64,000 bases of DNA. It comes from Verrucomicrobiota bacterium JB023. GTDB taxonomy: Bacteria > Verrucomicrobiota > Verrucomicrobiia > Verrucomicrobiales > Akkermansiaceae. Position 1 is the stretch's first letter. Each line of letters starts with the position of its first letter. The translations under genes were made by a program, and so were the position numbers. Where the stretch lies: NCBI GenBank assembly GCA_030673895.1, contig JAUTCR010000062.1, positions 32,871-96,870 on the forward strand. The letters run 5' to 3'. Positions 14,852 through 16,254 of this stretch are shown here, in pieces. The notes beneath the pieces were generated by a model. The model searched no databases and was not told where the DNA came from. It saw only the letters and a list, made by a program, of their open reading frames with translations.

Positions 14852-15526
14852 ATGTCTTTCTGGCCCCTCGAGGATCCGATCAATACCCTGCCCCTTGCTG
14901 GCCATCCCCTCTCGCATTGGCTCGCCACCGGCCTCATCGAGCAGGCCGGGCTCACAGAGCTCAAATACCCTTGGCAATTCCTCGACCTGCACGGCCCGCT
15001 TCTCGAGAAGCTTCTACACGAACAGCAGGAAGCCTCTGCCGCGACACCCGCCCAATTGGCCGAGGGAGCTCTCCTCATCGCGGGGGAAGGCACCAAGATT
15101 CTCCCTGGCGTCTATGTCGAAGGCCTCGTCATCATCGGCCAAAATTGCAAAATCGGGCCGAATTGCTACCTGCGTGGGCCGATTTCCATCGGGGATCACT
15201 GCCACGTCGGGCAAGCGGTCGAGCTCAAAAACACCATCCTGGGAGATGGAACCAATGTCGGGCACCTCAGCTACGTCGGCGACTCCATCCTAGCGAACAA
15301 GGTGAACTTCGGCGCCGGAACGATCACCTCGAATCTCCGCCACGATGGCACAAATCACCGTTCTGCCGTCAATGGAGAAATCATCGATACCGGCCGCCGC
15401 AAGTTCGGGTCTATCGTCGGCGCGGGCGTTCATACCGGCATCCACACCTCCCTCTACCCGGGAAGGAAGCTCGGCCCCGGCACCACCACCCTACCCGGCG
15501 AGGTCATCTCCGAGGATCGGAGGTAA
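14852..15526 (+). CDS. Left-handed beta-helix transferase, GlmU C-terminal-like
   Basis: 224 residues. From about residue 75 the sequence is a run of hexapeptide repeats (VIIGQNCKIGPNCYLRG and so on). GlmU acetyltransferase-like wording follows: HLSYVGDSILANKVNFGAGTITSNLRHDG, DTGRRKFGSIVGAGVHTGIHTSLYPGRKLGPG. The nucleotidyltransferase domain of GlmU is missing; the first 70 residues are a short alpha-helical region with no known motif. It is probably a sugar-nucleotide acetyl- or acyltransferase. It points away from ispG and converges on the selenoprotein gene. Confidence 0.8.
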   Translation: MSFWPLEDPINTLPLAGHPLSHWLATGLIEQAGLTELKYPWQFLDLHGPLLEKLLHEQQEASAATPAQLAEGALLIAGEGTKILPGVYVEGLVIIGQNCKIGPNCYLRGPISIGDHCHVGQAVELKNTILGDGTNVGHLSYVGDSILANKVNFGAGTITSNLRHDGTNHRSAVNGEIIDTGRRKFGSIVGAGVHTGIHTSLYPGRKLGPGTTTLPGEVISEDRR

Positions 15527-15557: not shown

Positions 15558-15592
15558 AAAAAAAACGGAAGGCCCCCTTCTGGAGACCTCCC
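15558..15592 (-). terminator. Rho-independent terminator of the selenoprotein gene
   Basis: On the minus strand a GC-rich hairpin (GAAGG-GGG-CCTTC, with a further possible outer pairing to GGAGG) is followed by eight T at 15558-15565. It begins 27 bp after the TAG stop of the selenoprotein frame. This shows that transcription runs through both UGA codons to the end of the 190-codon frame. Confidence 0.75.
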
Positions 15593-15618
15593 GGTAATCG
15601 AGTTCAGTTCCTGCGTTG

Positions 15619-16191
15619 CTAGAAGGGAAGCTTCTCCGCCTTCTTCACGCTCTTCACTTTCATTCCGAATTCTTTAATCGCTTCGGTCACCGCGTCCTTA
15701 TCCAGCGTCGTGTCTTCGCTGAGATGGATCGCAATGTCATTGTTCACGTAGGCAGCAGCGACGCCGTCAAGTTTCTCCAAGGCCACCCGGGCCTTCTCAT
15801 TCTTGATCGCTCATGTCGCTCCACTCACAGCCAACTCGTAGGCAGCCTGCGGTCGAGGCATCGTTGTTTTTTCAAACGACTCGAATTTGAGCCCGCCGCT
15901 TTTGAGCGCTTTTTCGACTTCCGCTTGGTCGAGCTTTTCCCCTTCGTTCATCAGGATGGTCGCCCGTAGGCCGGACAACATCACTGAGTTCACGCCAGGC
16001 TGTCTGGTCATGGCCTCACGGACCACTTTCGCAGCACTTCACCCGCCACCGGAAGCGGTGACCACATAAGCAGCCACCATATCGTCTGCCTGGGCCGCGC
16101 TATCGACCTTCTCATCCCGCACGTCGGCGAGGAGAGGAGCGATCAGCAAGCCACTGGCAGCCATCACAATTGATACGAATTTCAATTTCAT
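15619..16191 (-). CDS. Exported tandem-HMA selenoprotein (Sec51, Sec127)
   Basis: A 190-codon frame from ATG 16191 to TAG 15619-15621, broken only by TGA at codons 51 (16039-16041) and 127 (15811-15813). A signal peptide (MKLKFVSIVMAASGLLIAPLLA) is followed by two HMA-like beta-alpha-beta-beta-alpha-beta domains at about 39-108 and 116-185. The metal motif GMTCxxC reads GGG-U-SAA in the first and GAT-U-AIK in the second, so each UGA sits at the first Cys and the second Cys is lost. There is no Cys at all. Each UGA has a SECIS-like hairpin downstream. It is probably a periplasmic MerP/CopZ-like metal or redox protein. Pseudogene decay is unlikely because both stops fall at equivalent conserved sites. 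A 71-codon frame between them (15811-16026) is an artefact of treating UGA as stop. Confidence 0.85.
15779..15795 (-). promoter_or_regulatory. SECIS-like stem-loop for Sec127
   Basis: On the minus strand a perfect 6-bp stem (AAGGCC with GGCCTT) closes a 5-nt loop CGGGT. The stem begins 15 nt and the loop 21 nt after the UGA. Bacterial SECIS elements lie within the coding region right after the UGA, with a G among the first two loop bases; this one has G at loop position two. Confidence 0.7.
16005..16025 (-). promoter_or_regulatory. SECIS-like stem-loop for Sec51
   Basis: On the minus strand TGGTC pairs with GACCA, a single C is bulged, and GTG pairs with CAT (one G-U) under a 4-nt loop AGGC. 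The stem begins 13 nt and the loop 22 nt after the UGA. The bulged pyrimidine in the stem and the short G-containing loop recall the upper SECIS of E. coli fdhF. Confidence 0.7.
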
Positions 16192-16205: not shown

Positions 16206-16254
16206 CATCCCATTATGGGATGTGACAAGTTACCTAAACCAGCCGTCTTGACAA
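16206..16254 (-). promoter_or_regulatory. Promoter with dyad operator for the selenoprotein gene
   Basis: A perfect inverted repeat CATCCCAT-A-ATGGGATG occupies 16206-16222, 15 bp before the start codon. One reading is TTGTCA (16249-16254), 16 bp, TAACTT (16227-16232), with the dyad just after the -10. The other is TTGTCA (16223-16228), a 20-bp spacer holding the dyad, then TAACGT. The long spacer with a central dyad is the layout of MerR-type metal-sensing promoters. Which one is used cannot be decided here. Confidence 0.55.

Follow-up and report, generated by a model that had tools for sequence, protein, structure and literature searches.

A two-UGA reading frame on the minus strand

The window analyzed here, i.e., the whole stretch of 64,000 nucleotides from Verrucomicrobiota bacterium JB023 (Akkermansiaceae; contig JAUTCR010000062.1), carries at positions 15619 to 16191 a gene that likely encodes a selenoprotein, predicted to be exported and to have two HMA-type domains, each containing a single predicted selenocysteine (Sec). 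The gene is read on the minus strand from 16191 to 15619, begins with ATG, comprises 190 codons and ends with TAG, and the only in-frame stops within it are UGA at codons 51 and 127; the plus strand of 15619-16191 has no open frame across the span. The features of the locus, including two hairpins that resemble the bacterial selenocysteine insertion sequence (SECIS), are:

15619..16191, minus strand: two-UGA coding frame, ATG to TAG, 190 codons; product a two-domain protein with predicted Sec and predicted export
16123..16191, minus strand: likely signal peptide, residues 1-23 (by-eye reading of the translation)
15856..16080, minus strand: domain 1, residues 38-112, predicted beta-alpha-beta-beta-alpha-beta
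16039..16041, minus strand: UGA codon 51, predicted Sec of domain 1; TGA in 30 of 30 aligned frames
16009..16027, minus strand: SECIS-like hairpin 1, seven-pair geometry, loop CGTGA; six of seven pairs form in the window
15640..15846, minus strand: domain 2, residues 116-184, predicted beta-alpha-beta-beta-alpha-beta
15811..15813, minus strand: UGA codon 127, predicted Sec of domain 2; TGA in 30 of 30 aligned frames
15778..15796, minus strand: SECIS-like hairpin 2, seven-pair geometry, loop CGGGT; six of seven pairs form in the window
15566..15593, minus strand: terminator-like hairpin, 12 pairs followed by eight T

The original prediction for this locus, which left the strand unstated, described a 190-codon frame with ATG, TAG, and UGA at codons 51 and 127, lacking cysteine and followed by a terminator. 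All of these elements were recovered on the minus strand: the frame contains no Cys codon (nor does the family have a conserved Cys), and a hairpin with a U run is present at 15593-15566, one of three terminator-like sites found in the stretch vs. 1.1 in shuffled sequences. The proposed motif stood only in part, as both UGAs had been placed at the first Cys of GMTCxxC, with Ala54 and Lys130 in place of the second. The residue three positions after Sec (U+3) is indeed Ala54 at site 1 and Lys130 at site 2, but the window reads SGGGU and SGATU, not GMTC.

Conservation of both UGA codons

We searched 386 Verrucomicrobiales genomes, including that of the window, and accepted matches with E up to 1e-8. 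The gene was matched in 50 genomes, among them Roseibacillus persicicus, Rubritalea profundi, and Rubritalea marina, and each of the 50 matches contained exactly two TGA codons and no TAA or TAG. The same was true of the 26 carriers among the 98 nearest genomes (own included), all contained within the 50; such conservation is well above what chance would give. Relatives with other stops or residues at these places, or a corrected sequence without the UGAs, had been named beforehand as observations that would tell against a selenoprotein; none was found at the DNA level, and both UGAs are kept in the 50 genomes. In a phylum-wide search, 11 of 387 genomes matched at E 0.001, of which two (G000, the window's own genome, and G001, from its genus) contained clear members, and the other nine matches were weak (19.6-25 bits) and covered stretches around domain 2. 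One of the latter, L076, was rejected as a member, having an ordinary GMTCKNC HMA domain and a TGA that is a plain stop; the remaining eight were listed without an internal stop. Genome G002, of the window's genus, yielded no copy of the gene despite matches to SelB and tRNA-Sec that exceed the cut-offs; the gene is therefore either dispensable within the genus or absent from this assembly.

Thirty distinct full frames were aligned, with start codons picked by eye and with L036 and L042 ended at a third in-frame TGA. Both UGA columns were TGA in every frame, and the invariant residues were M1, G48, G50, U51, G66, G74, G124, and U127. Cys beyond residue 25 occurred in three members, each time at another position. 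In L033, L041, and L043, a lipobox-like Cys (residues 20-25, by eye) takes the place of an ordinary signal peptide, suggesting that these three of the 30 relatives are anchored in the membrane. For the segments before, between, and after the UGAs, the proportion of nonsynonymous differences (pN) was below that of synonymous differences (pS) in 98 to 100% of the 435 pairs. Median ratios of the corresponding rates (dN/dS) were 0.67, 0.50, and 0.51, calculated from the 64, 132, and 76 pairs that were unsaturated, and are only supporting since synonymous sites are largely saturated. With this caveat, the substitution pattern indicates purifying selection on the frame before, between, and after the UGAs.

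A phmmer search of about 5.8 billion proteins returned seven homologues, all assessed at the protein level only. Six of them, of 174-184 aa, show W wherever the gene has UGA, presumably the result of a gene caller reading UGA as Trp. The seventh, P0008, is a 110-aa fragment that begins after site 1 and has Cys at site 2, and it may represent a natural Cys form at that site; P0010, another 110-aa fragment beginning after site 1 and likewise a protein-level entry, has Trp there. A search with P0008 gave 14 proteins, all family members or pieces of them as judged by match names and an alignment of ten, and an alignment search for Cys homologues, in which the 7996 candidates sharing most words were scored, gave four proteins, none new. 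At the DNA level, no Cys-containing homologue was found among the 98 nearest or the 386 order-level genomes. Eight public 68-aa open reading frames (ORFs; P0012-P0019) correspond to the piece between the UGAs and end directly before the second, one of them being ACPH5P_06630 of NCBI, from an Akkermansiaceae metagenome-assembled genome entry; public annotation splits the two-UGA gene into pieces.

Such entries are what might be expected if the gene had decayed and the UGAs were ordinary stops, if they were sequencing errors, or if a different code read them as Trp: public gene callers end the 68-aa ORFs directly before UGA2, and W stands at both sites in eight database proteins. The presence of two TGA codons, with no further stop, in all 50 matched genomes and the excess of pS over pN around them speak against these explanations, as do the decoding machinery and hairpins described below.

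Predicted selenocysteine decoding and SECIS-like hairpins

The selA, selB, selC (tRNA-Sec, anticodon UCA), and selD genes, whose presence had been proposed as a check on the prediction, were all found in the window's genome over curated cut-offs. Its SelD (L084, G000:C17:129582-130511, minus strand) has an in-frame UGA of its own, in the stretch SSCAGUASK, and is therefore likely a selenoprotein itself; this UGA stands at the known active place of the protein. Among the 98 nearest genomes, SelB was over cut-off in 41, comprising 25 of the 26 gene carriers vs. 16 of the 72 non-carriers (Fisher p 1.6e-11, uncorrected for kinship). In the exceptional carrier, G041, a candidate tRNA-Sec scores over cut-off; in the window's genome, a second match of this kind is a tRNA-Ser. 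UGA ends five of the eight neighbouring window frames checked, i.e., those of menD, ispG, clpS, and two more, so the genetic code is standard.

Bacterial SECIS elements, as outlined in PMC13188914, have a loop of 3-9 nt with G in one of its first two places and an upper stem of 4-16 bp, lie 16-37 nt from the UGA, and have an energy of at most -7.5 kcal/mol. In the family, a hairpin with a 5-nt loop starts 14 bases (site 1) or 17 bases (site 2) past the U of the UGA, with spacings of 18 and 21 nt, respectively, and this 3-nt offset agrees with the one-residue difference between the domains after Sec (an hhalign gap). Of the 60 copies, all had the loop xG[G/U], 58 had an inner stem of at least 4 bp, and 56 were within the energy limit as calculated on a 50-nt stretch; the two copies in the window fall within every bound of the model. 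Alignment cells were paired in 90% (site 1) and 94% (site 2) of cases, ranking second and first among 449 codon-alignment positions (next, 68%). Cells changed on both sides numbered 26 and 43, values reached by none of 2000 shuffles, and both-side changes affected five and six of the seven pairs, as reached by 5 and 66 of 2000 shuffles. Compared with 1164 stretches elsewhere in these genes, the hairpins had lower energies (p 0.0004 and 0.026). In 12 held-out loci, 80% (site 1) and 93% (site 2) of cells were paired; four of these loci (L087, L088, L098, and L108) were taken, from frame lengths and motifs, to be the same genomes as L049, L052, L048, and L053, and in the remaining eight, 44 of 56 cells were paired at site 1 and 52 of 56 cells at site 2.

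Other results are weak or weigh against a SECIS function of these hairpins: their energies are little below those of shuffled sequences (mean z -0.41 and -1.34), the count of further pair types is unexceptional (1025 and 906 of 2000 shuffles reach the value), and four copies at site 2 fall outside the energy limit. On the whole, the aligned hairpins covary and largely fit the published bacterial SECIS model. Decay of the gene, sequencing error, and code reassignment were rejected on the grounds of the 50 of 50 two-TGA matches, the selection on the frame, and the neighbouring frames ended by UGA (menD, ispG, and clpS within the window itself), to which are added the covarying hairpins and the association with SelB; we regard plain stops, sequencing errors, or Trp codons as very improbable. 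Therefore, both UGAs are predicted, and likely, to be read as selenocysteine.

Two predicted HMA-type domains without CxxC

The original prediction of two HMA domains, with one Sec each at an equal place of the repeat, agrees with both structure prediction and profile comparison. AlphaFold2 gave two ferredoxin-like domains, in each of which Sec lies in the beta1-alpha1 loop, where HMA domains have their metal loop, and the beta-alpha-beta-beta-alpha-beta fold of the HMA type is predicted for each domain. Profile matches in the PDB (1.7e-8 to 0.08) were to CopA (1.7e-8), ZntA, CopZ, and MerP. With the Pfam model PF00403, the window protein scored 19.9, below the cut-off of 24.8 and in domain 2 only; 10 of the 30 members matched at E of 0.01 or less (best 1.2e-7). 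The sole Pfam HMA match over cut-off in the window's genome, L001 (G000:C5:343189-343371), is part of a frame of 937 residues containing GVTCIGC; by eye, this frame looks like a heavy-metal P-type ATPase.

The HMA domains of MerP, CopZ, CopA, and ZntA bind metal through CxxC. The window family resembles them in predicted fold and in the place of the chalcogen ligand but differs in having Sec at the first position, no second ligand, and no conserved Cys. A CxxC metal site is absent at either site in 30 of 30 members, as Sec occupies the first place and U+3 is never Cys, being Ala in 20, Gly in 6, and another residue in 4 at site 1, and Thr in 22, Lys in 3, and another residue in 5 at site 2. 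No UxxC or UxxU motif occurs in the 30 members.

The claim that no described family has this layout held within the sources compared. Table 1 of PMC13188914, with 119 selenoprotein families or subfamilies, lists no two-HMA family with one Sec in each domain and no Cys, and none of the seven members tested reached the cut-off of an NCBIfam model. The literature searched, with most subscription journals and preprints outside its scope, gave no description of a two-UGA double-HMA family. The NCBIfam scores of the window protein were 26.7 bits vs. 600 for a mercury(II) reductase model, 26.5 vs. 95 for NF041115, and 21.8 vs. 92.55 for MerP (TIGR02052), and the CopZ cut-off was also far off. NF041115 was the first match for five of the six further members (best 36.3 bits), the sixth, L041, having no HMA-type match, and it was the first or second match for six of the seven. 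This UxxU metal-binding (seleno)protein family, named 'putative mercuric reductase' in older lists and included as a selenoprotein family in Table 1 of PMC13188914, shares with the window family an HMA-like profile and two Sec per protein; however, it is a one-domain UxxU model of 74 positions, whereas the window family has two domains, one Sec in each, and no UxxU.

Among other selenoproteins linked to metals, MbdU (NF045648), as given in Table 1 of PMC13188914, also has two Sec and is termed metal-binding, but it has a CU motif, whereas the window family has no Cys before Sec; among the matches that the seven members gave at E values up to 10, its model did not appear. The UxxC cation-transporting ATPase and the MerT/CopZ fusion selenoprotein (NF045683) likewise have Sec in metal-transport proteins but, from their family descriptions, are membrane transporters with other motifs; NF045683 matched one of the seven members, at E 0.06. 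The tabulated results of the GOS survey include Sec in marine-metagenome 'MerP' and 'putative mercuric transport protein', two sequences each (PMC2398784). These resemble the window family as Sec-containing proteins of a mercury-transport type and, known from the table only, may be the same family. Of these two names, the 2026 review gives the putative mercuric transport protein alone, as PF02411 with one Sec (PMC13188914).

Gene neighbourhood

The window gene is adjoined by menD and a gene for a GlmU-like protein, followed by ispG and clpS. The GlmU-like protein (window 14852-15526, plus strand; 224 residues) is convergent with the selenoprotein gene and matches the acetyltransferase half of GlmU-type enzymes only. 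MerP genes normally lie beside a mercury-resistance gene cluster; no such cluster is found beside the window gene. We clustered the neighbourhoods of 25 loci, some with short flanks (20 genomes plus the window, L048, L049, L052, and L053). No neighbour was conserved across the 25 loci, the commonest (oxidoreductase-like by eye) being present at seven; gene neighbourhoods give no functional clue. A perfect palindrome, CATCCCATAATGGGATG, lies 31 bases upstream of the ATG (window 16206-16222, minus strand); the upstream regions of the other 29 members showed no copy of it, leaving the idea of an upstream operator without support.

A possible two-selenolate site

The identity of the protein is supported by the conserved two-UGA family, the SECIS-like hairpins, selABCD, the HMA-type folds, and the lack of a conserved Cys, in line with the exported selenoprotein originally proposed, Sec and export both being predicted. 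Regarding its role, we lean, with scarcely more than even confidence, toward an exported tandem-HMA-fold protein whose two likely Sec, as selenolates, together bind one Cu+, Ag+, or Hg2+. In such a protein, each domain would lack the second CxxC thiol, so neither could chelate metal in the manner of CopZ or MerP, and, since U+3 is never Cys, metal ligation within a single domain would involve one chalcogen only. The two selenols, retained as a pair, could jointly supply two soft ligands, either across the domains or between two molecules. A two-selenolate site is the simplest reading that accommodates the predicted fold of soft-metal carriers, the Sec at the first ligand, the loss of the second ligands, and the retention of both Sec in every member found. 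The role of the protein would be to buffer or carry soft metals outside the cytoplasm. That the site is selenium-obligate, i.e., that two selenolates, from one Sec per domain and with no conserved Cys, clamp Cu+, Ag+, or Hg2+, we suggest more tentatively, at somewhat less than even confidence.

A redox role, in which the two selenols form a reversible inter-domain diselenide or serve as two single-Sec sites that reduce peroxides or disulfides and are resolved by an outside thiol, is possible but clearly less probable. Where the role of a selenoprotein is known, it is mostly a redox role (PMC13188914); UxxT is present at site 2 in 22 of 30 members, and the paired retention of two Sec would also fit a diselenide. 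However, the nearest folds by profile are metal carriers and not the thioredoxin fold, none of the 30 members has UxxC or UxxU, and the oxidoreductase-like neighbour at seven of 25 loci is not family-wide. These lines of evidence favour soft-metal binding by two selenolates over the redox role but do not decisively separate them. We consider it unlikely that the selenols serve as an extracytoplasmic selenium store or carrier, or in the binding of a partner or small molecule. An orphan gene with no conserved partner and two Sec in about 167 mature residues would suit such a use, yet the Sec are just two and always occupy one structural place of a metal-binding-type fold, which a store would not need.

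For Verrucomicrobiales, the family provides two covarying SECIS-like examples per gene. Cys homologues, on which detection methods are based, are said to exist for nearly every selenoprotein, and here none was found at the DNA level. The family places Sec in a metal-binding-type fold with one chalcogen ligand per domain, and it would therefore make it possible to test directly whether affinity for metal, and not redox catalysis, can be the reason for keeping Sec. If the selenium-obligate site suggested above is true, the family would parallel the CxxC metallochaperones with selenium only, and would be of a kind missed by detection based on Cys homologues.
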